A DNA stretch of 64,000 bases. Source: Bacteroidota bacterium (GTDB lineage Bacteria; Bacteroidota; Bacteroidia; Bacteroidales; Lentimicrobiaceae). Location of the stretch: NCBI GenBank assembly GCA_009773455.1, contig WSXU01000018.1, forward strand, positions 1 to 64,000, written 5' to 3'. A program made the position numbers and the translations under genes. Below are positions 1 to 18,756 of this stretch, in pieces. Numbering within the stretch: the first letter of the stretch is position 1; every line of letters starts with the position of its first letter. The notes beneath the pieces were generated by a model. It made no database searches and was not told the origin of the DNA. It worked only from the letters and a program-made list of their open reading frames with translations.

Positions 1-99
1 TCAATCGCTGCGCGGTTCAAGCGTACCCCTCTGTCCTTCGGACATCTCCCCTTTGAAAAGGGGAGAACCTGATTAAGTAAGGCTGGGGATTCAGGTGTT
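1..99. repeat. 99-bp intergenic repeat, copy 1
   Basis: This stretch recurs base for base at 436-534. Each copy holds two hairpins: GTCC/GGAC around a TTC loop, and a 10-bp stem TCTCCCCTTT/AAAGGGGAGA around GA. It has no coding capacity. The form resembles a REP- or MITE-like element; the family is not recognised. The copy may continue beyond the left window edge. Confidence 0.85.
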
Positions 100-101
100 C
101 T

Positions 102-891
102 ATGCCCTGAGGGCGTTCAAAGGGCGGTGGTTCGACAGGCTCACCACAAGTGGGGCGACTTCAGCGAAAGAGCGATTAAAGCTACCACTAAGACACTAAG
201 AACACTAAGATTCACTGAGATTTATAAACCCTTCCTTAGTGTTCCTGGGTGCTCTTAGTGCCTGCGTGGTTATTTTAAGAAGTGGCTTAAACAGTTAACA
301 ACAAGATGATTATAAGTCTAATGTGCCCTATTGTGCCTATGTGGTGAAAAATAATTAGTTCAAAGGTTCAATCGCTTCGCAGTTCAATGCGCTGCGCGCG
401 TTCAAGGGTTCAATGCCCTTCGGGCGTTCAGAGGTTCAATCGCTGCGCGGTTCAAGCGTACCCCTCTGTCCTTCGGACATCTCCCCTTTGAAAAGGGGAG
501 AACCTGATTAAGTAAGGCTGGGGATTCAGGTGTTGGGCGTTCAAGAGGCGACTTAAGCGAAAGAATGCGACTAATATTACTAATGTGACCTATGTGCCTA
601 TTGTGGTGAAAAAAAAGTTCGAAGTTCAATGCCCTGCGGGCGTTCAGAGGTTCAATCGCTTCGCGGTTCAATGCGCTGCGCGCGTTCGGTTTTCAATGCC
701 CTTCGAGCGGAAAAGGGCGACTTCAGATACTAAGCGAACATACTACTTCTTAGTGTTCCTTAGTGAGCTTAGTGCCTTAGTGGTTATTCTTAATCCGGGT
801 AACTGTATCCAGGGTTTATGCGTTTCACGGCTCAATCCGGATCCGGACTCTCCCAACTCCCAACTCCTAACCTCAAACCCCGAACATCGAA
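102..891. repeat. Repeat-filled intergenic region left of the polysaccharide cluster
   Basis: No convincing gene lies here. The region is a mosaic of short hairpins flanked by TTCAA and GTTCA (102-117, about 361-446 and 622-712), a 'cttagtgttcc...cttagtg' element (about 184-276 and again 745-792; a third copy is near 23440-23487), and the second 99-bp repeat. Open reading frames crossing it consist of repeat sequence and carry no recognisable domain. Confidence 0.7.
436..534. repeat. 99-bp intergenic repeat, copy 2
   Basis: Identical to bases 1-99, with the same two hairpins. Identity without drift suggests recent spread or gene conversion. Confidence 0.85.
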
Positions 892-1626
892 CTAATCAAA
901 AATCTTCCTCAGCAGCACCAGCGTTTTTTCGACTTTGAAGCCCAGGGTGCTGAAGGCTTCGTTGATCTCTTCAACATTTAAGCCTGAGGTAATGGCTTCC
1001 ACATTGCCAACACCACGTTTGACGAGGGCATCAATCACCGCAGCTTCAAGCATGGAGGCAAAGGCCGGGGTGTTGTGTGCCGGTGCCATAAAGTTATAGA
1101 AGTACCGTACCGTCTTTTTGCTGGTAAACTCACCGTTCCTGAATCCGGCCAGTTCGCCGGTGTGATGGTTTACTAGGCCATAAAGGAATTCGGATTTATA
1201 ATTGGTTACCGATTTCCTGAGATACAGTTCCAGTCTCTTTAAAGAAGCACCAGCCGGAACGAGCGGATCGCGCGAAAACCGGTCGTCGGACGGATAGCTG
1301 CGGATGATCTTAAAAATTTCAGGAAGTGACTCTTCGTTAATTTCCACTGCCTGCCAGGGGAAGAAAGAATGGGCCCCCATCTGCATGTTCTCTATCCGCA
1401 GATAGCGGAACATACGGAACTCCACAAACCGGAAACCGAGATCCTCAAACGCATGAATTGTGGGCAGATCCGTTGCATCACACAAACGGTTCATATACCA
1501 GGGATTCTCATCTTTGATGAGCTTATTAATCCCCTTTCTGTATTCTTCAGGCGTGGTTTCTTCATTCAGCACGACAACCTTGCGTCCGAAGAGTTCAGTT
1601 TCGACTTTAAGTACAGAGTATTCCAT
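892..1626 (-). CDS. GNAT-like N-acyltransferase
   Basis: A 244-residue protein that looks like a WecD/TDP-fucosamine-type GNAT acyltransferase. The C-terminal half (about residues 150-240) reads as the acyl-donor fold, with the 'MLEAAVIDALVKRGVGNVEAI' region placed as the GNAT helix after the pyrophosphate loop. It is the last gene of the minus-strand polysaccharide cluster and lies 70 bp after the AMP-ligase. Position suggests that it moves the acyl group made by the preceding ligase, ketosynthase and carrier genes onto an amino sugar. The acyl donor and acceptor cannot be read from the sequence. GNAT membership is fairly likely; the specific role is inference. Confidence 0.6.
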   Translation of the reverse strand: MEYSVLKVETELFGRKVVVLNEETTPEEYRKGINKLIKDENPWYMNRLCDATDLPTIHAFEDLGFRFVEFRMFRYLRIENMQMGAHSFFPWQAVEINEESLPEIFKIIRSYPSDDRFSRDPLVPAGASLKRLELYLRKSVTNYKSEFLYGLVNHHTGELAGFRNGEFTSKKTVRYFYNFMAPAHNTPAFASMLEAAVIDALVKRGVGNVEAITSGLNVEEINEAFSTLGFKVEKTLVLLRKIFD

Positions 1627-1695: not shown

Positions 1696-3081
1696 TCAGA
1701 TATAAATGGTCTTCCCGGCTTCATTCCTTTTCAATTCATCCAAAACAATAATTTCAATTGCCTTGTGAAATAGTCCTGTTTTCTCAACAATAAACTCATG
1801 CAGAACTGTTTTTTTATCCTCTTCGGTAATGTAAATCTTCATCATCTCATCATCACCACTACAAATACAGTCGATGTTAAAGCCGGATTTGATCATCTGC
1901 TCTACCTCATCCAGACTTATCCTTAAACCGTAAAGCTTCAGAAACCTGCTGATCCGACCCACTATAAAGTAACAACCATCTGTATCACGACGGGCAATAT
2001 CACCAGTCTTCAACATACCCCTGTTTTCATCACCCTTAAGCAAATCGTCCGGATTTGTAGCGTAACCTAAGGTAACATTTGGACCGTGATATACCATTTC
2101 TCCTGTAGCCTCATTTTCATTTATCTCTATTCCGGTATCATCACAAAGCGATAGACTGCCACCCGGAATTGCCTTTCCGATACTTCCTGTTTTACTTGTT
2201 GCCAAATCGGCTGGTAAATAAGCCATTCGTGCAGTCCCTTCAGTCTGACCATAAGTAGCAATAAATCTCCTGCCCGTCTTTTCAGCGTATTCTGCGTATT
2301 CTCTGAAAAGCTGATCACTAAGTTTTCCGCCACCCTGGGTTAAAAGTCTCAAGTCAGGCAAATCCATTCTAAAGAACCTCAATTTGTATAAAACTTCGTA
2401 ACTGTATGGAACCCCAGTAAAACTCGTGGCTCTGTTCACTTTAACAAATTCCCAGAATTCTTTATCGGTAAGGCTTTTTTTTGTCAGAAGAACTGTCGCA
2501 CCTGCATACAAGTGACTGGTAATAACTGAAAGTCCCATGGTATAATGCATTGGGAGCATTCCAATTGCCCGGTCTTCTGATTTAAGTTCAAAAAAAGAAG
2601 CAACATTGCGCGCACTTGCTGCAATATTATTATAACTGTGACGGACTAATTTCGGACTTCCTGTTGATCCGGAAGTCGGCAACAGAAAAGAAAGTTGTTC
2701 ATACAAAGGGTATTGCGGAAACCCGGTATTCAGCAATACATAACCTGAATTATGATAGATTGGTTTATAATCAAACTCATCAGACATATTATCCGGAATC
2801 CATAAACAGGATGGCTTATAGATTTCAATCAACCTCCTCAATAAACCTCTTTCGGTATTACTGCTTATCAGCAATGGGACTATGCCACCAGACAGTGCTG
2901 CCACAAAACCCGATAATGATCCGATGCAATTCTCCGATAAAATAAAAATCAGTGTTCTTGAAGTGATGTATGAATTGAACGCAACAGAAAAATCACAAAG
3001 TTGTCCATAGGTAATCCTGCTGCTATAATCGTCAATAGCTGCGATATCAGATTTTACCTTTTTATCAATATCGAGAAACAT
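1696..3081 (-). CDS. AMP-dependent acyl ligase (ANL superfamily)
   Basis: A 461-residue adenylate-forming ligase. The core motifs are visible: A3 'LLPTSGSTGSPK' near residue 135, A5 'ATYGQTEG' near 275, A7 'KTGDIARRD' near 355, the hinge 'GRISRFLKLYGLRIS', and an A10-like 'NEAGKT' lysine at the extreme C-terminus. It is slightly shorter than usual acyl-CoA synthetases, with a compact C-terminal lid. The gene lies 12 bp after an SDR, and a carrier protein (3869-4108) is two genes upstream. A role in loading an acyl or aryl acid onto that carrier, or onto CoA, is plausible; the substrate is unknown. Confidence 0.85.
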   Translation of the reverse strand: MFLDIDKKVKSDIAAIDDYSSRITYGQLCDFSVAFNSYITSRTLIFILSENCIGSLSGFVAALSGGIVPLLISSNTERGLLRRLIEIYKPSCLWIPDNMSDEFDYKPIYHNSGYVLLNTGFPQYPLYEQLSFLLPTSGSTGSPKLVRHSYNNIAASARNVASFFELKSEDRAIGMLPMHYTMGLSVITSHLYAGATVLLTKKSLTDKEFWEFVKVNRATSFTGVPYSYEVLYKLRFFRMDLPDLRLLTQGGGKLSDQLFREYAEYAEKTGRRFIATYGQTEGTARMAYLPADLATSKTGSIGKAIPGGSLSLCDDTGIEINENEATGEMVYHGPNVTLGYATNPDDLLKGDENRGMLKTGDIARRDTDGCYFIVGRISRFLKLYGLRISLDEVEQMIKSGFNIDCICSGDDEMMKIYITEEDKKTVLHEFIVEKTGLFHKAIEIIVLDELKRNEAGKTIYI

Positions 3082-3093
3082 CCGGGTACTCAG

Positions 3094-3849
3094 TTAAATA
3101 ACCGTGCTACCATCAACACCTAAAATCTGTCCGGAAATATAAGTAGACATGTCAGATGCTAAAAACACACAGGCATCTGCAATTTCTTCTGGTCTGGCAA
3201 GCCGACCCATTCCAATGTCGGAAATCCGGTCATTAAAACTTTTTTCAAAAACTGCCCGGAATCTTTCTGTATCGACCATCCCGGGCGCTATGGCATTCAC
3301 CCTGATATTTTGGGCAGCAAGTTCTTTTGCAGCAGATTTTGTTAATGAGATAACAGCACCTTTGGTTGCAGAATAGGCCAACTGCCCTTTTGCTCCTTCA
3401 ACACCAACGATACTTGCTATGTTTATAACTGAACCACTGTTCTGACGCGACATAATCCTGGAGACCAACTGTATCAGATGAATCATTGCTATGACATTCA
3501 CCTCAAACATATTTCTGAGGCTTTCGAAATTGATCATGCTTAAAAACTCGTAGGTTACCACCCCTGCGTTATTGACCAACACATCAATCCGTTGATGATC
3601 TTTTTTAATCTGCATCACGGCCTGTTTTACAGCTGCAAAATCAGTAACATCAAAATAGACCGGAATAATAACTGCCTTTGTTTTTGCTGACCATTCTTTC
3701 GCCCATTCATCTATAGAACCTTCCTCAAGTCCGTTTGCATAAACTACAGCGCCATATTCTGCAAATCTTTCAGCAATGGCACGGCCTATGCCACTACCGG
3801 TTCCGGTAATAAGGCAAACTTTACCTTCCAGAAGTTTTGTATTCTCCAT
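3094..3849 (-). CDS. SDR oxidoreductase, FabG-like
   Basis: A short-chain dehydrogenase of about 251 residues. The NAD(P)-binding motif 'TGTGSGIG', the 'NNAG' motif and the catalytic Ser, 'YSATK' Tyr and Lys are all present, and the C-terminus has the typical 'SGQILGVDG' of FabG-like enzymes. I chose the ATG at 3849; a TTG four codons upstream would lengthen it. It follows the carrier protein by 19 bp and precedes the AMP-ligase, so reduction of a 3-oxoacyl group on that carrier is the likely job. This is one of two SDRs in the module; the other is at 7178-7921. Confidence 0.85.
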   Translation of the reverse strand: MENTKLLEGKVCLITGTGSGIGRAIAERFAEYGAVVYANGLEEGSIDEWAKEWSAKTKAVIIPVYFDVTDFAAVKQAVMQIKKDHQRIDVLVNNAGVVTYEFLSMINFESLRNMFEVNVIAMIHLIQLVSRIMSRQNSGSVINIASIVGVEGAKGQLAYSATKGAVISLTKSAAKELAAQNIRVNAIAPGMVDTERFRAVFEKSFNDRISDIGMGRLARPEEIADACVFLASDMSTYISGQILGVDGSTVI

Positions 3850-3868
3850 TCTTTCAGTCAATTTTAAA

Positions 3869-4108
3869 TCAAACGATTACATCATATTTTGCCAGAATCT
3901 GTTTACCTGTCTCATAAGATTTGAAATCAAGAATATCTTCCGAATCGAGCATGATATCAAATTCATCTTCCACTGCAGTCACCAGACTCAACTGTTTTAT
4001 CGAATCCCATTGTTTTAGATTTCCTGCAGCAAGATCACCATTCAACTGATCGTTTCCTACTTTAAACTCGTTCCTGAAAATATTGTTATACCTCTCAAGA
4101 TTATCCAT
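3869..4108 (-). CDS. Acyl carrier protein (first of two)
   Basis: A 79-residue acidic helical protein with the carrier signature 'QWDSIKQL'. Ser36 would carry the phosphopantetheine, and DSI replaces the common DSL. A strong Shine-Dalgarno (AGGAGG on the minus strand, 4119-4124) lies 10 bases before the ATG, which is unusual in this window and suggests high translation. It sits between the KAS III gene upstream and the FabG-like SDR downstream, and so is the likely scaffold for the acyl group. Confidence 0.85.
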   Translation of the reverse strand: MDNLERYNNIFRNEFKVGNDQLNGDLAAGNLKQWDSIKQLSLVTAVEDEFDIMLDSEDILDFKSYETGKQILAKYDVIV

Positions 4109-4226: not shown

Positions 4227-5312
4227 TTAAACCAAACCCCTGAAGCTTTCCTGATACCATGCATCTGTATGAACAATGGGATATATCCTGCTGATATCCA
4301 GCACTGCATCGGCGCAACCCCAGGAAAGACCAGCCCCGAAACCACTCATCATGGTACGGATCGAACCACTGTCCATATTTCCAAAATTATCAGCAAGCAC
4401 CAGCGGAACAGAATTACTGCTGTTGTTGCCGAACCGGTCAATTGAGATCGGGATTTTTTCAACAGGTATCTTTACTTTTCTGGTTATCTGTTTTATTATA
4501 AACATATTGGCCTGATGCAGAGCAAAACAATCATAGGTATCGGTAGTTGTTCCAAGTTTTTCCATAAAGTCCTTTATCAGGAGCGGTACTTCGGTGATAG
4601 AAAAACCAAACACCTCCATTCCTTTCATATGGGTATCGTAATCAGATCGCAGAATACCATCATCCCAAAGTTCGCGTTCAACCGGTGCATTCATATTCCG
4701 GTAGGCCCCCGAAGGTGTAATTATACTTTTGAATTTGCTGCCGTCGGTTCTCATAGCCGTATAAATCGTGCCCGGGTTACTGCTTTTTTCCAGCAAAGTA
4801 GCAGTACCACTGTCGCCAAAAAGCATGATCATGGTACGATCCATGGGAGAAAGTGTCCTTACTGAAGTGTCTCCTGTAATCAGCAGGGCTGTTTTGGATT
4901 CTGAATTTTTCAGCATCGAAAGAACTGCTTCCAGTCCAAAGATGAATCCGGAACAGGCAAGATTAATATCAAAACAACTACATTCACGATTCAGTCCGAG
5001 CCGTTTATGCAATAAATAGGAAGTTGAGGGTGATCTGAAATCGGGCTTTTGAGTAACAAATACAAGTATACCGATATCATCCGGGTTAATTCCCTGTTTA
5101 TTGAACAGATTACGGGCTGCTTCATAACCCAGATCAGAAGCAGTCTGCTGAGGAACCGCCCTGTAAAGGGCTTTTACACCAGTCATTTCAGAAAAGCCGG
5201 TAACAGCTTCCTCTCCGAAAACCTCATTGAAGGATTCTACCGGAATCTGTTTTTCCGGCACAGCCACCGACATACCGGTTATCTGTATGTTCTGAAACGC
5301 GCTGAATATCAT
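4227..5312 (-). CDS. KAS III-like ketoacyl synthase, catalytically complete
   Basis: A 361-residue thiolase-fold protein of the FabH/KAS III type. The catalytic triad is intact: Cys120 in 'INLACSGF', His266 in 'FALHQAN' and Asn296 in 'FGNNSSNS'. The C-terminus ends in the usual glycine-rich 'GFGAGLSWG'. It would condense an acyl starter with a malonyl-type extender on a carrier protein. The next gene upstream (5361-6452) is a paralogue of the same length in which all three residues are replaced, so the pair may work as a heterodimer. It lies 118 bp before the carrier gene. It is unlikely to be the housekeeping fabH because of this context. Confidence 0.88.
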   Translation of the reverse strand: MIFSAFQNIQITGMSVAVPEKQIPVESFNEVFGEEAVTGFSEMTGVKALYRAVPQQTASDLGYEAARNLFNKQGINPDDIGILVFVTQKPDFRSPSTSYLLHKRLGLNRECSCFDINLACSGFIFGLEAVLSMLKNSESKTALLITGDTSVRTLSPMDRTMIMLFGDSGTATLLEKSSNPGTIYTAMRTDGSKFKSIITPSGAYRNMNAPVERELWDDGILRSDYDTHMKGMEVFGFSITEVPLLIKDFMEKLGTTTDTYDCFALHQANMFIIKQITRKVKIPVEKIPISIDRFGNNSSNSVPLVLADNFGNMDSGSIRTMMSGFGAGLSWGCADAVLDISRIYPIVHTDAWYQESFRGLV

Positions 5313-5360
5313 ACCTTAATCATTTTTGTTATTGTTCCACAATGAATTGAAAGCTTACCA

Positions 5361-6452
5361 TTACTGCTGAAATACATGACTAACAGCGCCATCTTCAAAA
5401 ACAGCATCCGTTTCGATAACAGGTATCAGATTTTTTGTATTCATATAAAAGTCTGCAACACCCCACGATAAACCTTCACCAAAACCGCAAGCCAGCACAT
5501 GAATTTCTTTCTGATCACTTCCCCCAAAACCATCTGTGAGTAGCAACGGAATGGAATTTCCACAGGTATCACCAAATCCTGAAGGGTTAACCAATACCTT
5601 GTCAAATGGAATTCCCAGTGTATCTGAAATATGTTTTAATACAGCAACATCGGTCTGATTAAAAGCAAAAAAATCATAATCAGACACCTGCGAATTGTAT
5701 TTTAACATAAACTCCCTGACAGCCGCAGGTATTTCATCTGACGCAAAGCCCGACAATTTACCCTGATGAACAAACAAATTGCCTGAAGTCCTGCCACTTC
5801 CATCCCTGTAAGCATCCGGGGTCTCTTCTTCAGGTATTGTCCTGAAGCCACCTCCGGGAACGATCATTGACTGATAATTGGATCCTTCTGAAAGTGTCCT
5901 GATGTATAAAGGTTTTGCATCCTTTCTCTTTTCAATCAGAACTGCGGAAACACCATCGCTGTATACAAGGTTAAGCGGATCAAGTGGCGCCAGTTGCTTA
6001 CTGGTGGTATCACCAACAATCAGCAGTCCGTACTTTTTTTCAGTTGTATCAAGTAATGAACTTACAATCTGAATACCATGAACAAAACCAGAACCTCCGA
6101 GATTAACATCAAATGCAATACAATCTTTTGAAAGGCCCAATCGCCCATGTAAAACACAGGCAGTTGCAGGGCTTCTGTAGTCAGGGGTTTTCGATACAAA
6201 GATGATCACACCAATTTGCTCCTTTTCCAGTTGTTTTTTATCAATCAGAACACCTGCGGCTACATATCCCAGATCAGATGATGTTTGCAGTTCATGGGCT
6301 TTATGCAGCTCAACTGCTCCCGTTTTTTTCAGAAACGAATCAAATGTTTCTTTATCATACTGCAGTTGATAATCACTGAGTTTTACTTTATTGGAAGGTA
6401 TTGCGCTTGCAATTCCGGATAAGTCAATATCACTGAATTTAAAATATGCCAT
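5361..6452 (-). CDS. KAS III-like protein lacking the catalytic triad
   Basis: A 363-residue paralogue of the neighbouring KAS III protein, collinear throughout. At the catalytic Cys it has Gly120 ('NLGGSGFVHG'), at the His position Asn265 ('FAFNQTD') and at the Asn position Asp295 ('FGDTCGNS'). The rest of the fold, including the C-terminal 'GFGEGLSWG', is preserved and the frame is open, so this is not simple decay. Known precedents for an inactive thiolase-fold partner are PqsB with PqsC and the chain-length factor of type II PKS. I infer a structural or substrate-shaping subunit for the 4227-5312 protein. Confidence 0.85.
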   Translation of the reverse strand: MAYFKFSDIDLSGIASAIPSNKVKLSDYQLQYDKETFDSFLKKTGAVELHKAHELQTSSDLGYVAAGVLIDKKQLEKEQIGVIIFVSKTPDYRSPATACVLHGRLGLSKDCIAFDVNLGGSGFVHGIQIVSSLLDTTEKKYGLLIVGDTTSKQLAPLDPLNLVYSDGVSAVLIEKRKDAKPLYIRTLSEGSNYQSMIVPGGGFRTIPEEETPDAYRDGSGRTSGNLFVHQGKLSGFASDEIPAAVREFMLKYNSQVSDYDFFAFNQTDVAVLKHISDTLGIPFDKVLVNPSGFGDTCGNSIPLLLTDGFGGSDQKEIHVLACGFGEGLSWGVADFYMNTKNLIPVIETDAVFEDGAVSHVFQQ

Positions 6453-6529: not shown

Positions 6530-7168
6530 CTAAGGTTGAAAATTTACTTTTGTTGCAGGGCTGCCAAAAACAGTTGTTCCTTTTTTAACCTTGTTCAGAA
6601 CAACACTTCCCATACCAACTACAGCAAGTTCTTCTACCACTGCATTCTGAATTAATTTTACCCCGGCATTAATGGTTGCCAGATCATGTACCTGACTGAA
6701 TCCGGCAAAGAAAGTATGCGAATTGACCTGACAATATCGGCCTATCTTAACATCATGCCCCATGATCACCGAACTCTGGAGGAAGGTAAAATCGCCAACC
6801 GAGGCATCACTTGCGATCACACAAAAAGCTTTGATACCAACCCCGATACCAAGTTTAACACTTGGAGAAATAACACAGGTCGGATGAATCAGGTTTATAA
6901 ATTTCCCACCTTTTGCAAGGATTATTTCAACTGTTTTTTTACGATCCGTTACTTTCCCGATCGCGCAAAAGAAGACATCATCAGGTTGTGGACTATATCC
7001 GGAAACAGTCGCGAGTACAGGTGGATAGCCTCTGGATTCAATATCGGAAGGACCATCACTCAAAAAGCCCCTTACCTTAAAATCAGGATCATTGCCAAAA
7101 CAATAGTGTGCCAGGTCATATATTTCCCGCGCAAAGCCGCTTGCGCCTATGATTACTAAATTTCTCAT
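6530..7168 (-). CDS. PglD/NeuD-like sugar N- or O-acyltransferase
   Basis: A 212-residue protein with an N-terminal Rossmann-like domain beginning 'LVIIGASGFAREIYDLA', followed by a left-handed beta-helix of hexapeptide repeats (about residues 95-200). This is the PglD/NeuD architecture. A His in 'IMGHDVKIG' matches the catalytic His region of PglD. PglD uses acetyl-CoA to acetylate UDP-4-amino sugars. Here the gene sits between a carrier protein/SDR pair and the KAS III pair, so a longer acyl donor is possible. The PglC-type transferase at 8468-9073 fits a bacillosamine-like sugar, but no aminotransferase or dehydratase is present in the window. Confidence 0.82.
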   Translation of the reverse strand: MRNLVIIGASGFAREIYDLAHYCFGNDPDFKVRGFLSDGPSDIESRGYPPVLATVSGYSPQPDDVFFCAIGKVTDRKKTVEIILAKGGKFINLIHPTCVISPSVKLGIGVGIKAFCVIASDASVGDFTFLQSSVIMGHDVKIGRYCQVNSHTFFAGFSQVHDLATINAGVKLIQNAVVEELAVVGMGSVVLNKVKKGTTVFGSPATKVNFQP

Positions 7169-7177
7169 CAGAATTAA

Positions 7178-7921
7178 TTATTTGATTGAATAACCTCCAT
7201 CAAGGGTGATCAGGCTGCCAGTCATCCATTCAGAAGCAGGTGATAAAAGGTATACAGCAAGGTAAGCCACATCTTCGGGTTTACCAAAACGACCGGCAGG
7301 GAAATTCTTTTTATGCTCCTCCAGTTGATCATGACCAATAGGGCCATGATCAAGAATACCTGTTTCGACAAATCCGGGAAGTATGGCATTCACCCTGATT
7401 CCATTGGGTGCAAGTTCAAGCGCCAGCGACCTCGTAAAAGAATTTACCGCTCCTTTCGTAGCGCTGTAGATAGAATTACCCAACTGGGCATAACCTGAAG
7501 AAACAGATGAAATAAAGCATATTGAGCCACCCTTTTTAATTTTTTTCAGGCGAAGCAGACGCTGAATAAGTAATACCGATCCATTAAAATTAGCATCGAA
7601 AAGCGATTCAAGGATTTCACGCGTAACAAACCTCACCGGAACAGTTTTCACCATTCCGGCATTCAGAATTATACCATCAAGTTCAGGCAGGCTATCGGCC
7701 AGCGATAAGACTGAATCATCATTACAAAGGTCAGCATCGTATATGTGATGACTTCCGGCAGCCAACAAAGACCTGGTTTCCTCAAGTCTGAGGAGGTTCC
7801 TGGCCGAGAGCTGAATTTCGGCACCCTGTAAGGATGATTGAACGGCAATTGACCGGCCGATGCCGGATGATGCACCTGTAACCAGTACCTTCTTACTGGA
7901 TAAACTGAAAGGTTGTTGCAT
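7178..7921 (-). CDS. SDR oxidoreductase, FabG-like (second)
   Basis: A 247-residue short-chain dehydrogenase with 'VTGASSGIG' near residue 15, 'LNAGM', and the catalytic Ser and 'YSATKGA' Tyr/Lys. The C-terminus 'GSLITLDGGYS' is typical of classical SDRs. It lies 9 bp upstream of the PglD-like gene and downstream of the second carrier protein, and so makes a second carrier/reductase pair in the same module. It may reduce a ketoacyl intermediate or the sugar itself. Confidence 0.85.
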   Translation of the reverse strand: MQQPFSLSSKKVLVTGASSGIGRSIAVQSSLQGAEIQLSARNLLRLEETRSLLAAGSHHIYDADLCNDDSVLSLADSLPELDGIILNAGMVKTVPVRFVTREILESLFDANFNGSVLLIQRLLRLKKIKKGGSICFISSVSSGYAQLGNSIYSATKGAVNSFTRSLALELAPNGIRVNAILPGFVETGILDHGPIGHDQLEEHKKNFPAGRFGKPEDVAYLAVYLLSPASEWMTGSLITLDGGYSIK

Positions 7922-8063: not shown

Positions 8064-8291
8064 TCAGGCGGTACGACGGATTATTTCGTCATACACCTCC
8101 CCAACTGTAACCAGTTGTTTGAAATCCTTTGCTTCGATTACAACGCCGTATTCGCTGTCAATCATGGCAATCAAAGCCAGGTATGCCAGAGAACTCCACT
8201 CTTCAAAATCCCTGAATTTATCTCCGGGCATCAATGTTTTCTCATCGTTTTCAAGAACTTCCCTGAACATACCGATAAATTTTTCGTCCAT
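8064..8291 (-). CDS. Acyl carrier protein-like (second of two)
   Basis: A 75-residue acidic helical protein. The segment 'FEEWSSLAYLALI' aligns with the carrier-protein DSL region, with Ser34 as the candidate phosphopantetheine site and Ser in place of the usual Asp before it. Length and charge fit a free-standing carrier protein. It is separated by 142 bp from the SDR that follows and by 176 bp from the sugar transferase that precedes it. Whether it is phosphopantetheinylated is not certain because of the changed motif. Confidence 0.75.
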   Translation of the reverse strand: MDEKFIGMFREVLENDEKTLMPGDKFRDFEEWSSLAYLALIAMIDSEYGVVIEAKDFKQLVTVGEVYDEIIRRTA

Positions 8292-8467: not shown

Positions 8468-9073
8468 TCAGTTGTGCCCGTTAAAGGCTTCCATGGTCCG
8501 GGTATCGGACGCATCTATGCCCTCGCGTTTAAATACTTTCAGCACAGTCATCGCGATTATCTTTATATCCAAAGATAAGGAGATATGATCAACATACCAG
8601 ACATCGAGTTCAAATTTCTTAGACCATGACAGGGAGTTTCTGCCATTTACCTGGGTCCAGCCGGTAATGCCGGGTTTTACTTTATGCCTTCTGGCCTGCT
8701 CGGGGGTATATAGCGCCAGGTACCTCACCAGCAATGGCCGCGGCCCCACAAGGCTCATATCGCCCATAATTACATTAATCAATTGCGGTAACTCATCCAG
8801 TGATGCCGACCGGATAAACTTACCCACTATTGTAGTCCGTTGTTTGTCAGGAAGTGGCCTCCCCTGTTCATCGTATAAATCGCGCATGGTACGGAATTTC
8901 ACCAGCCTGAAAGTATCTCCACGAAAGCCGGGCCTGTCCTGTAAAAAAAATGGTCTCCCTTTGTTTACAATAAATAGAATCAGAGTCAGTGTCAGAATGA
9001 CCGGCGATAAGAGCAGCAATCCAAGAGTTGCAAGGATAAAGTCAATTGTTGGTTTAATCAATCTGATGTACAT
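8468..9073 (-). CDS. PglC/WcaJ-type sugar phosphotransferase (initiating)
   Basis: A 201-residue small bacterial sugar transferase. It has an N-terminal re-entrant hydrophobic helix (about residues 8-35), then 'KFRTM', the 'SLDELPQLINV' Asp-Glu dyad, 'GDMSLVGPRP' and 'KPGITGWTQVNGR', all conserved in monotopic phosphoglycosyl transferases. Such enzymes move a phosphosugar onto undecaprenyl phosphate to start repeat-unit assembly at the inner membrane. The size matches PglC rather than the longer WbaP. It lies between the glycosyltransferase part of the cluster and the acyl module. Confidence 0.92.
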   Translation of the reverse strand: MYIRLIKPTIDFILATLGLLLLSPVILTLTLILFIVNKGRPFFLQDRPGFRGDTFRLVKFRTMRDLYDEQGRPLPDKQRTTIVGKFIRSASLDELPQLINVIMGDMSLVGPRPLLVRYLALYTPEQARRHKVKPGITGWTQVNGRNSLSWSKKFELDVWYVDHISLSLDIKIIAMTVLKVFKREGIDASDTRTMEAFNGHN

Positions 9074-14089: not shown

Positions 14090-15219
14090 TTCTTGAGGAT
14101 ATTGAGTATGACATCGCGGTGGGCTTCACATCTGATCAGGTTGTTGTATAGACGCTTCTTATCCGAAGTCAGAAGCGAGGGCAGCAGTCCTCTTTTGTAC
14201 AATGCATTCAGTACCCGATTCGAATAAGGTTGCAGGTAATTCAGGTATTGTTTCTCAGATCGCCTGCAGAATCTATCAAACTCCAGGGCAAGGGCATCCT
14301 GATTACCTATTATTTTATTTAACTCAGCGATCGAATCTTCAAATTCGCCTTTCTCTGTCCTGGTTGTCATTCGCAGGCCAGGCAATTCATCAGACTGAAT
14401 AAACGGAAACAAATTAAAGTCGTGTGACCCGTCAGCTGCTATCCGGAACTGCAATGCCAGCCCTTTGTTCCATTTTGAGGACCTGAACCTGGGATTATCA
14501 AAAATAAAGTTACCAAGTCCGTAAAAGATATGACCATTATTGTATGTTTCAAACCCACTGTAATAATGGGCATGGTGGCAGGCCACCAGATTGGCCCCGG
14601 AATCTACAAAAAACCTGCAGGTTGCCTGCAAACGTGGGCTTGGCAAAGAATACAATTCATTGCCTCCATGGTAAACAACAACAATAAAATCGGCCATAGA
14701 CCTTACCGAAGCAATGGTTCTGGCATTGGCAATTAATTCTAGCGGATTTGCCCCGGGGTGATTACCGGTGGTTGTTGACCATTCATTTTCGCAAAAATTC
14801 AACAAGGCTATGGTCGTCCCTTTCAGTTTTCTGATCAGGGGTTTGGCGGCCTCTTCCAGGTTTAGTCCGGCTCCAAGAAAATCAAGGCCCTCACTCTGGC
14901 ATACTTCTATGGTTTTTATCAGGCCCTGATGCCCGAAATCCATGATGTGATTGTTTGCCAGTGTTATTGTATTGAAGCCGGCTGTTTTCAAGGCTTTAGC
15001 TGCCAACGGGTCAGCCTTTATAGCAGGACCTGTTTTTGCTATTGGTGTCCCGGATTGAATAAGGGCTGATTCAAGATTAACGATTGTAAGATCATTATCG
15101 CCAAGGAATGTAATACTTTCATCAATCAATTCAGAGTGTTTCCCATTCCTGATAAATTCATCTGTCCGGCCACCACCATAAAAGTCTCCGGTAATTAAAA
15201 CTTTAACATCTTCCTTCAT
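14086..15219 (-). CDS. CapA-like metallophosphatase-fold protein
   Basis: A 377-residue protein of the CapA/PGA_cap family. It begins 'VLITGDFYGGG', followed by 'LTIVNLESALI', 'ITLANNHIMDFG' and a 'HHAHYYSGFETYNN' segment, which together are the metal-binding calcineurin-like motifs of this family. Family members act in poly-gamma-glutamate or capsule assembly, but many have no known reaction. No N-terminal signal is seen, so it is probably cytoplasmic. It overlaps both neighbours by 4 bp. Confidence 0.82.
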   Translation of the reverse strand: MKEDVKVLITGDFYGGGRTDEFIRNGKHSELIDESITFLGDNDLTIVNLESALIQSGTPIAKTGPAIKADPLAAKALKTAGFNTITLANNHIMDFGHQGLIKTIEVCQSEGLDFLGAGLNLEEAAKPLIRKLKGTTIALLNFCENEWSTTTGNHPGANPLELIANARTIASVRSMADFIVVVYHGGNELYSLPSPRLQATCRFFVDSGANLVACHHAHYYSGFETYNNGHIFYGLGNFIFDNPRFRSSKWNKGLALQFRIAADGSHDFNLFPFIQSDELPGLRMTTRTEKGEFEDSIAELNKIIGNQDALALEFDRFCRRSEKQYLNYLQPYSNRVLNALYKRGLLPSLLTSDKKRLYNNLIRCEAHRDVILNILKK

Positions 15220-16346
15220 GATGATCTCTGATCAGATATAATAAGACGACCCAGTTCTTCGGAAGTCATAAACTCTACGTCAGGCCATTTATTTACAATC
15301 CCGCTCAATAGTTCTTTAAACTTATTCAGGTTATTCTTTCTGTTTTCTTCCACGATCGAACCAATAAAGTTGAGGCGGTGGCTTGATATAATTGCCGGCC
15401 GTCGCCAGAAAAAGGCAAGTGCTATTTCCTTCAGGCAGGCATCCACCCAATCTCTGGATGAATCTGTGGCTGGCTCAAATGAGGCGTTCCTGACCAGGTA
15501 AATCTGACCATTGGTATTGGTTTCGCCGGTAAAATGCCTTTTAATCAGGGTCCCGTCCGTACCGGGCTGTCGCTGTACCCTGGCACCCTGAATAGCATTA
15601 ATTCCTTCTTTTTTTAATGTGCTTTCAAGCTCTGAATGCCATGTATAATTTGTCGGAATAAACGTAAACGATCTGTAACCCAGCAGATTTTCAAACAAAT
15701 GAAGTCCATCTGCCAGAATACGTTTGTGATCTTCAAGTTCATCCGGTGCATCAAAATCAAGGGCAGCCATGTAGCTTTTTCTTGTTTCACCGGTAATGGT
15801 TGTACTGATGCCGAACAGACGGTGCCTGAATGCCATCATGGTCTCAGGGAGTCCGGCACTGAGTGCATTCATCCACCTCCTGACATTCAGATGTTCACGT
15901 CCATGGAACTGGGGATAAAACAGATGACCGGCCAATCCTTCCTTCCATAAACTGAAAGAGTTCTCACAACCTTTATATTGATGAAATGCGGAGGTCACAG
16001 GTTCATACTGATATTCGCTGAACCCGGATGATTGAATTTTGTCAAAATCAGGATTGGCAACCACGCAATTGGCTGTTATTACCGGATGTTTCCCTTCGCT
16101 GTTGCTTATTTCCGACAGTGTATCGAAGAGCGCATTCAGGTCATTCTCACCCTCAAGCGAGTCGAAACGGTTGTAGGGACACTTTTCAACCGGAATACCC
16201 GATTGGCTGAGTTGTTTATAAACCCCGGCTGAAGGCATCCTGATGCTGCCCCAGTCGTCCGATTCAATCACAACAATTCTTCGGTGGCTGCTCCAACCCC
16301 TGATATTCAAAAGATTGTCGCTAAGCAGTTTCTTTAACCTGATCAT
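15216..16346 (-). CDS. CE4-like polysaccharide deacetylase (paralogue 1)
   Basis: A 376-residue protein with 'VVIESDDWGS' (Asp30-Asp31) and 'FHGREH' (His148 and His152). These fit the DD and HxxxH metal-binding motifs of carbohydrate esterase 4 enzymes; a further 'SSHRLNF' lies near the C-terminus. There is no signal peptide, unlike most secreted chitin or peptidoglycan deacetylases, so it may act on a cytoplasmic lipid-linked sugar. The next gene upstream is a full-length paralogue (16359-17480). Confidence 0.75.
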   Translation of the reverse strand: MIRLKKLLSDNLLNIRGWSSHRRIVVIESDDWGSIRMPSAGVYKQLSQSGIPVEKCPYNRFDSLEGENDLNALFDTLSEISNSEGKHPVITANCVVANPDFDKIQSSGFSEYQYEPVTSAFHQYKGCENSFSLWKEGLAGHLFYPQFHGREHLNVRRWMNALSAGLPETMMAFRHRLFGISTTITGETRKSYMAALDFDAPDELEDHKRILADGLHLFENLLGYRSFTFIPTNYTWHSELESTLKKEGINAIQGARVQRQPGTDGTLIKRHFTGETNTNGQIYLVRNASFEPATDSSRDWVDACLKEIALAFFWRRPAIISSHRLNFIGSIVEENRKNNLNKFKELLSGIVNKWPDVEFMTSEELGRLIISDQRSS

Positions 16347-16358
16347 TATTTCAGAATA

Positions 16359-17480
16359 TCATGATGTTGATCCACTGATTATATCACCCAGTTCATCACT
16401 GCTCACAAACTCAATGTCAGGCCAGGTTTTCAGCATGGATTTCAACAGCAGGTTCAGTTTTTCCAATGTCCTGGTCCGGTTTTCTTCAAAAACGCCTCCG
16501 CTGAAGTTCACCCTATGGCTGTTTATCACAGCGGGTTTCCCCCACCTGAAGGCAATTTTCATCTCACCGAGGCAACTGTTTACCCAGTCATAATCCTGAT
16601 TTTTGCTGGGTTCAAACGTACAGTTTCGCCGCCAGTAAATCTGATTCAGCTTATTCCGGTGTCCCCAGAAATAGTTTATTAGTTTGAGTTTACCACCCTC
16701 AGCTGGAATGTAATGCTGTCCTGACTGATTATATACTACCCCGTTTTTCATCAGAACCTCATTCAGATGATCACCCTGAACAGAACAACTTGGCATCAAA
16801 GACCTTGATCTGAAACCGAAAATCCTGTTGAACAAATCAAGCCCATCCGCGACAATGGATTCAATTTCAATCATTTCCTCCTGATTTCTATATTCAAAAG
16901 CGGCCATATATTCGGAATCGGAATGCCCGGTATTGTTAAGTCCGAGCAAAACCTTGTTCTCAAAAGCAATCCTTTCCTGTTGAATCCCCGAATTTAAAGC
17001 CCTTAACCATTTCCTGGTATTCAGATGTTCCCTCCCATGAAACTGGGGCCACAAAAGCCTGCCTTCAATTCCGGCATTCTTCCATAAATTCAATACCCCT
17101 GCATGATCCGGATAACTAAGATAAGTTTCAGTAATCAATTGATAGTGATATTCTCTGAACCCTGCATTCTGAATTTTATCAAAGTCGGGATTGGCTACTA
17201 CTGCATTTGCCGTAATAATTGGATTATGATTGTTTGAGTCTCTATACTTGATTAGTAAATCAAAAAGCGCAGTCAGGTCTGTTTCGCTTTCAAGACAATC
17301 GTTCTTTAAGAAATAATGTTTGTTGATTGGAATCCCTTTGGAAATCAACAATTCATATATTTTTCTGGAAGGCATGCGTATGCTCCCCCAATCATCGGAT
17401 TCAAATACAACCAGTTTTCGGTTGGTATGCCACCCCGGAAGATTAACAAGATTCTTTAATAATTTCTTTTTATAACTCAT
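16359..17480 (-). CDS. CE4-like polysaccharide deacetylase (paralogue 2)
   Basis: A protein of about 373 residues, collinear with the 15216-16346 product: 'VVFESDDWGSIRMPS', 'QFHGREHLNTRKWLRAL' and 'INSHRVNFSGG' are shared. I place the start at the ATG at 17480, one base past the stop of the polymerase gene; an in-frame upstream start would overlap that gene heavily. Tandem duplication followed by divergence suggests that the two copies act on different sugars or positions. No signal peptide is visible. Confidence 0.75.
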   Translation of the reverse strand: MSYKKKLLKNLVNLPGWHTNRKLVVFESDDWGSIRMPSRKIYELLISKGIPINKHYFLKNDCLESETDLTALFDLLIKYRDSNNHNPIITANAVVANPDFDKIQNAGFREYHYQLITETYLSYPDHAGVLNLWKNAGIEGRLLWPQFHGREHLNTRKWLRALNSGIQQERIAFENKVLLGLNNTGHSDSEYMAAFEYRNQEEMIEIESIVADGLDLFNRIFGFRSRSLMPSCSVQGDHLNEVLMKNGVVYNQSGQHYIPAEGGKLKLINYFWGHRNKLNQIYWRRNCTFEPSKNQDYDWVNSCLGEMKIAFRWGKPAVINSHRVNFSGGVFEENRTRTLEKLNLLLKSMLKTWPDIEFVSSDELGDIISGSTS

Positions 17481-17481
17481 A

Positions 17482-18756
17482 CTAGAACTGATCCATAATG
17501 ATATCCTGTATTGAAATGTCAGATTCAAGCACCATGGCCACAATCGGATTGCCAAATATCAGCCAGGGACTGACTGTATATAAGTCACCCCGGAGTACAA
17601 CCAGCGCGTGAAGAATAAACACTAGCCGGTAAACTCTGCTTGTTCTGCTTAATGTAAGATTTCCTGGATTTAAATAACTGATATACAACAAGTAAATGAG
17701 AGAGAACAGGTTTGAAACAAGAATAAACCTGTTGCTGATTGAATCAACCAGACCCCCGGAAATGATGCTGGCACCAAAAAGAATGAGGGCAAAGGAAAAC
17801 AACCGGTTGGCAAGTAGATCATGTTTGATTTTAAACGAAAAAAACCTGATGAGCAACATCGCAATGTTCACAAAGTAGAAAGTAGAATACTTATCAAAAT
17901 TCACATACCACCGCCAGTTGTCAGTGTGTAATTCCCGGTTTTCCATAAAGGCCGCATCCGTATATTCATTGTACTTGTTCTCAATCGCTGATCCGAAAAA
18001 ACTGACATTTTCCGTTATAAAGCTGGAAAATACCGATGATACAACGGCAATCGCAAGAAATGAATACAAGAATACCCTTCTGTCTGGGAAACCGGCTAAA
18101 TAGAATGCCAGTAAAAAAAGCACCAGGTAAAGCAATGAGAAATGCACAAGAATAGACAAAGCCGCAATAAACAGGAATTTGATCCGCTTTTTAAGTATCA
18201 GGTTAAGTGCCCCATAACAGTATACCATAAATGCCATTCCAAACCTGACCCCGTTGATCCCTGCGGAGAAATTGAGTACAAACACACATCCCAAAAAAAA
18301 CCAAAGATAATGCCTACCCCATCCGGAGGGGGCCAACTCCCAGATTGTACCCATCAGGGCAACAAAAACCCAGAAATAAAGCAATCCGGTTAAAAGAAAA
18401 AACACCTTGGGGTCATCCGAAATCTTCTTGGAAACAAAAAATAAGGTAAATGCGTAAATATCAGGAAAGTCGGATTCCTTATCAGCAATATGGGTGATAT
18501 CATTGATATATTTACTATAGGTATATTCTTTCATGCTCAGATATGTATCTTTGTAGTCCTGACCATCTGAGTTTTTTATAGGTATAAAGGTAAACCCATA
18601 CAAAGCCCCGAAAAGGATGATGAAGATCCTGTACTTCTTATTGCTGAATTGCCTGATTGATGTTATCAACGGCAGCATTGGATAGATGATCCAAAGCATC
18701 AGCAGTGCCCCGACATTTGATTTATGCTGGGCGTTGTTTCTCCTGGTACTACTCAT
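17482..18756 (-). CDS. EpsG/Wzy-like polysaccharide polymerase
   Basis: A 424-residue integral membrane protein with roughly ten hydrophobic segments and a long periplasmic-type loop around residues 230-280. The N-terminal region 'GFTFIPIKNSDGQDYKDTYLSM' resembles the EpsG family. In the Wzx/Wzy pathway it would polymerise the repeat units outside the inner membrane, and a flippase is encoded at 19840-21402. Sequence in this family is poorly conserved, so the call rests on topology and context. Confidence 0.75.
   Translation of the reverse strand: MSSTRRNNAQHKSNVGALLMLWIIYPMLPLITSIRQFSNKKYRIFIILFGALYGFTFIPIKNSDGQDYKDTYLSMKEYTYSKYINDITHIADKESDFPDIYAFTLFFVSKKISDDPKVFFLLTGLLYFWVFVALMGTIWELAPSGWGRHYLWFFLGCVFVLNFSAGINGVRFGMAFMVYCYGALNLILKKRIKFLFIAALSILVHFSLLYLVLFLLAFYLAGFPDRRVFLYSFLAIAVVSSVFSSFITENVSFFGSAIENKYNEYTDAAFMENRELHTDNWRWYVNFDKYSTFYFVNIAMLLIRFFSFKIKHDLLANRLFSFALILFGASIISGGLVDSISNRFILVSNLFSLIYLLYISYLNPGNLTLSRTSRVYRLVFILHALVVLRGDLYTVSPWLIFGNPIVAMVLESDISIQDIIMDQF

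Follow-up and report, generated by a model that had tools for sequence, protein, structure and literature searches.

Directly upstream of an intact β-ketoacyl synthase III (KAS III) gene, a Bacteroidota contig carries a second gene whose product has almost the same length and none of the three catalytic residues. This pair suits a general question, namely why evolution retains an inactive subunit. We refer to the two proteins as KAS-A (without the triad) and KAS-C (with it), and to the whole stretch of DNA analysed, 64,000 nucleotides, as the window.

An intact and a triad-less KAS III in one operon

In the order of transcription, the operon holds the following genes.

8468..9073, minus strand: initiating sugar-phosphate transferase (Bac_transf), pathway context
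8064..8291, minus strand: ACP1, carrier protein, PP-binding match above the Pfam cut-off
7178..7921, minus strand: SDR1, second FabG-like reductase
6530..7168, minus strand: NeuD/PglD/VioB-family sugar N-acyltransferase (TIGR03570, 153.7 bits against a cut-off of 160.8)
5361..6452, minus strand: KAS-A, KAS III fold, non-catalytic (G120/N265/D295); proposed structural and pocket-forming subunit
4227..5312, minus strand: KAS-C, KAS III with intact C120/H266/N296; proposed catalytic subunit
3869..4108, minus strand: ACP2, small carrier protein (PP-binding E=0.0034, just below the Pfam cut-off; Ser in a DSI motif)
3094..3861, minus strand: SDR2, FabG-like short-chain reductase
1696..3081, minus strand: LIG, AMP-forming acyl/aminoacyl ligase
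892..1626, minus strand: protein without a family match, GNAT-like by eye, possible acyltransferase

The genes upstream of the operon, for glycosyltransferases, an EpsG-type polymerase, a PGA_cap protein and one resembling polysialyltransferases, mark the region as a surface polysaccharide cluster. The window also carries two adjacent paralogues (15216-16346 and 16359-17555) with an ESDDWGSIR motif and no Pfam match, a family that is found in the related clusters L160, L182, L184 and L187 as well, in some of them in tandem. Downstream of the operon, the contig end (window 1-900) contains interspersed direct repeats, among them GTTCAATGCCCTTCGGGCGTTCA-type units and a 99-nt exact duplication (1-99 = 436-534).

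The original prediction described two adjacent, equally long proteins that align without gaps at the active site, and the sequence bears this out. KAS-A (363 aa) and KAS-C (361 aa) are both open frames on the same strand, with KAS-C starting 48 nt past the end of KAS-A, and they share 34% identity over nearly their full length. The predicted substitutions are exact as well: Cys120/His266/Asn296 in KAS-C stand opposite Gly120/Asn265/Asp295 in KAS-A. Both proteins match KAS III (Pfam PF08545/PF08541; NCBIfam), and since KAS-A lacks the Cys-His-Asn that KAS-C retains, it is, judged by its sequence, a KAS III homologue and not a KAS III enzyme.

The claim that KAS-A keeps the fold also held. Modelled alone from a 19-sequence alignment, KAS-A gave a complete KAS III fold (pLDDT 87.7, pTM 0.89), with 4efi as the top match and FabH also among the matches. 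We further ran AlphaFold2 on a single A-linker-C chain, in which a 17-residue linker was read through the stops (all three of them TAA), using a 5-row alignment. The resulting model reached a pTM of 0.50 and was of low confidence at the interface loops, so that it yields no predicted A:C interface. This fused prediction not being confident, we infer the physical A:C heterodimer from the evidence given below, and likewise its activity, substrates and product.

We then asked how unusual such a partner is. Polysaccharide clusters of Bacteroidota often hold one to three KAS III genes beside an ACP, an SDR, NeuD and a sugar transferase. Across the 42 loci with neighbourhoods surveyed, every full-length KAS except KAS-A has Cys-His-Asn, tandem copies included, and in an alignment of ~70 Bacteroidota homologues the Cys is present in every other sequence covering the site, as are the His and the Asn in every other sequence covering those columns. 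Since tandem KAS III genes are common and their partners all keep the triad, only the dead partner is unusual and the pairing itself is ordinary. The original prediction did not recognise such a pair, set in a polysaccharide cluster with two carrier proteins, as described; this needs correcting to the extent that tandem KAS III genes with ACPs are commonplace. In addition, we scanned 84,980 species with degenerate codons for exact matches to active-site motifs of KAS III in which another residue stands in the place of the Cys. Of the 20 matches, most were unrelated proteins and only two were KAS III, both from Bryobacteraceae (L083, L088) and both with Ser for the catalytic Cys and with His and Asn intact. 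Exact matching misses divergent motifs, and the scan overlooked five degenerate partners found later, so its outcome does not speak against the existence of others.

Recurrence and ancestry of the pair

Our first impression, that KAS-A is unique to this locus, was overturned by wider sampling. Whole-genome searches for the pair (1,870 genome searches, overlapping) revealed five further loci, L159, L160, L161, L182 and L183, in which a degenerate KAS lies directly upstream of a Cys-His-Asn KAS orthologous to KAS-C. Their host bacteria are distantly related, L159 belonging to another class, and such recurrence most likely reflects a genuine enzyme of two parts rather than gene breakage. The six A genes are all full-length and open (320-363 aa). 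At the position of the Cys they encode G, E, S, S, S and H, never Cys (0/6), and their His and Asn regions are variously lost; C keeps Cys-His-Asn in all six. Pairwise identity among the six is ~17-40% for A and 44-69% for C.

Gene order is conserved along with the pair. The core A-C-ACP2-SDR2-ligase is common to 6/6 loci, with A directly upstream of C, ACP2 directly downstream of C, and the spacing between the A and C frames ranging from 48 nt to a 4-nt overlap. NeuD lies just upstream in all six (in L159 with one metallo-hydrolase gene in between) and ACP1-SDR1 upstream in five, while the protein at 892..1626 is not conserved at the other pair loci. A sister clade (L064, L184-L190) accounts for eight more loci, each with a single KAS of this type, which has Cys-His-Asn, and without A; NeuD and the ligase are present in all eight, SDRs and an ACP in most. 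A metallo-beta-lactamase-fold hydrolase is often found beside the cassette or the sister clade (L159, L161, L182, L183, L064, L184, L187, L190), and a DegT aminotransferase occurs in most of these same loci; neither was seen beside the window operon, where the contig ends nearby.

Two observations could have told against a dedicated pair, namely close relatives of KAS-A that keep the Cys, or a lack of conserved co-occurrence. As to the first, the single sequence nearest to KAS-A (L064, 39%) does have the Cys, but it falls in the separate single-gene sister clade, and no member of the A clade (6 members) has it. As to the second, A stands beside C in 6/6 C-clade loci, with a second KAS of this kind in 0/8 sister loci. 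A search of genome contigs for close relatives with KAS-A alone gave no confirmed relative, phage and plasmid collections yielded distant KAS III only, and 18 other genomes of the same genus held no A homologue above the level of an ordinary KAS III, so that the pair is not a genus trait.

A maximum-likelihood tree of 51 sequences, with branching orders read unrooted, resolves A as one clade (support 99/99, 6 members), C as one clade (100/97) and the sister group as one clade (100/100). Together with one further gene, the three form a joint clade (100/100), and A and C have compatible branching orders, with no conflict between them. A branches are longer, that of L183 reaching 4.2, and the order within A is accordingly less certain. 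Most simply, one duplication and one loss of catalysis in A would have been followed by joint inheritance of both genes. The L159 cluster also contains a third KAS III (L159:4945-6012) with Cys-His-Asn, placed in the tree beside the A, C and sister clades.

Residues kept and lost in KAS-A, and rival explanations

To see what selection has maintained in A, we took as reference the 91 columns that C and the sister group both conserve. Among these, A has lost the catalytic Cys (0/6) and most HQAN and pantetheine-pocket columns; the equivalents of FabH M207, G209, A246 and N247 are present in 0/6 A and 6/6 C, and much of the C-terminal Pfam domain is missing in several A members. What A retained is TPD(Y/F)RSP...R(L)G(L)..D...D.N, corresponding to FabH 82-107, which in published FabH structures makes up a loop, a helix and a strand at the dimer interface. 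From this loop, Phe87 of FabH closes the acyl pocket of the partner; F87 has been described as the cap residue (PMC12664062).

The contrast is sharp when expressed as mean pairwise identity: for A it is 27.5% overall, 86% in the loop FabH 82-88 and 9% at nine catalytic and pocket columns, and for C 55%, 78% and 96%, respectively. When conservation is compared in windows of 11 or 15 residues, A surpasses C only in windows beginning at FabH 80-101 and 119-124, a clustering mainly on the dimer loop and strand. A column permutation for FabH 76-112 gave p = 5e-5 for a region picked after inspection, so we give weight to the clustering of the windows and not to the p value. At the F87 column, A has Ser in 5/6 (A = Ser/Ile) and the residue in C differs between loci (S, S, S, L, I, F), a pattern across six pairs that is suggestive of A's loop facing the only live pocket and C's loop facing a dead one. 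The loss of catalytic and pocket residues, with dimer loop and strand kept, is a selection pattern that supports a non-catalytic subunit.

Could each of the two proteins simply be an ordinary KAS III homodimer with a step of its own, the arrangement that many Bacteroidota clusters with tandem genes show? Tandem KAS III genes with an ACP and an SDR are indeed common, but both partners keep Cys-His-Asn in those tandems, and no Claisen chemistry is possible for KAS-A without Cys, His and Asn, which leaves this reading highly improbable. Nor do we give much credence to KAS-A being a decaying duplicate on its way to loss, the least probable account in our estimate. Its fast evolution, long branches and lost active site would fit decay; yet six full-length open A frames of single origin have been kept beside C over deep divergence, the dimer-face motif is better conserved in A than in C, and several A members are degraded beyond the window copy with their frames still open.

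We regard it as unlikely, too, that KAS-A works independently of KAS-C, as a monomer or a homodimer, in some new role other than condensation, such as acyl transfer, decarboxylation or the binding of ACP. The Cys position is Ser in three A proteins and Glu in one, and KAS III-like acyltransferases with Ser exist, such as DpsC (PMC12664062). However, the A clade has no nucleophile in common (G, E, S, S, S, H). Several of its members lack the pocket residues and a large part of the C-terminal Pfam domain, the parts kept are the dimer loop and strand, and A always adjoins C. KAS-A and KAS-C thus very probably form an obligate heterodimeric β-ketoacyl synthase III with a non-catalytic subunit. The original prediction of such an enzyme is supported by the clade, the co-occurrence and the residue pattern, while the physical dimer is the part that we infer.

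Proposed role and comparison with known systems

In the mechanism we propose, the ligase would load a starter acid, and its presence suggests a starter other than acetate. ACP1 and ACP2 would carry the chain, and the acyl group would be loaded onto Cys120 of KAS-C, where His266 and Asn296 would support decarboxylative condensation with malonyl-ACP. KAS-A, having no working site of its own, would supply the other half of the thiolase-fold dimer. In FabH, the counterpart of its TPDYRSP loop crosses the interface and shapes the far end of the acyl pocket of the other subunit; KAS-A therefore probably helps to set which acyl chain fits. The SDRs would then reduce the β-keto group, and the NeuD/PglD-type transferase would put the (3-hydroxy)acyl group onto an amino sugar of the surface polysaccharide.

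A close analogue of this pathway is the viosamine island of Pseudomonas syringae, which likewise combines a KAS III, a reductase, an ACP and a NeuD/VioB-type acyltransferase; VioS, VioR, the ACP and VioB are proposed to give an N-3-hydroxybutyryl amino sugar (PMC3927599). The window cluster contains the same set, a KAS III, a FabG-like reductase, an ACP and a NeuD/VioB-type transferase, the last just under the NCBIfam cut-off. By analogy, the likely role of the pair would be to build an acyl chain on ACP for amino-sugar N-acylation. The island differs in having a single VioS with no inactive partner, one ACP, one reductase and no ligase described. If our reading is true, the pair predicts unusual acyl groups on Bacteroidota glycans.

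Active synthases with inactive partners and a substrate pocket at the interface are familiar from KS/CLF of type II PKS and from ApeO/ApeC (PMC12664062, PMC8358021). Those, however, are of the KAS I/II (FabF/FabB) type, whereas KAS-A and KAS-C both match KAS III and not KAS I/II models. Descriptions of KAS III heterodimers in which one partner is divergent or non-catalytic are few; we found PqsBC and LstAB. Searches of the open-access literature on KAS III of Bacteroides capsule clusters and on inactive KAS III partners turned up no account of the present pair.

PqsB, in which none of the three catalytic residues remains and C-terminal elements are missing, pairs with PqsC in a KAS III heterodimer (PMC4807248), much as we propose for A and C. 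Unlike KAS-C with its full triad, PqsC is without the Asn, and PqsBC serves the Pseudomonas quinolone pathway, whereas two ACPs accompany the pair here. We considered whether A and C are the homologues of PqsB and PqsC and rejected this: against the PDB, the A profile matched PqsC weakly, at 1.6e-10, with no PqsB chain among the best 60 matches, and the nearest relatives of A in the tree are the C clade and the single-gene sister clade. Together these results indicate an origin separate from that of PqsB.

LstA/LstB, the lipstatin synthase, is also a KAS III heterodimer, with Cys-His-Asn in LstA, a divergent LstB and genes that always occur together; neither protein is soluble alone (PMC12141560). 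It differs in joining two acyl-CoAs, in needing Glu60 of LstB, and in its cluster and substrates (PMC12141560). From motif spacing, the Ser that five of the six A proteins have at the F87 position would match the catalytic partner Glu of OleA and LstB.

Closest of all is the sister clade, whose clusters share the ligase, SDRs, ACP and NeuD; each has one full-triad KAS, presumably a homodimer. Six diverged natural pairs and so close a single-gene outgroup make a good system for following the evolution from homodimer to obligate pair. Tentatively, we suggest that A-C could be a KAS III heterodimer with an origin independent of PqsBC and LstAB: a small type II PKS dedicated to the acylation of glycans. 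Its dead subunit might determine the length or type of the acyl chain by way of the loop that crosses the interface, much like CLF, and the single-gene sister clade would represent the presumed homodimeric starting point. If true, the pair would add a further KAS III heterodimer to PqsBC and LstAB, in the new setting of surface polysaccharide acylation.
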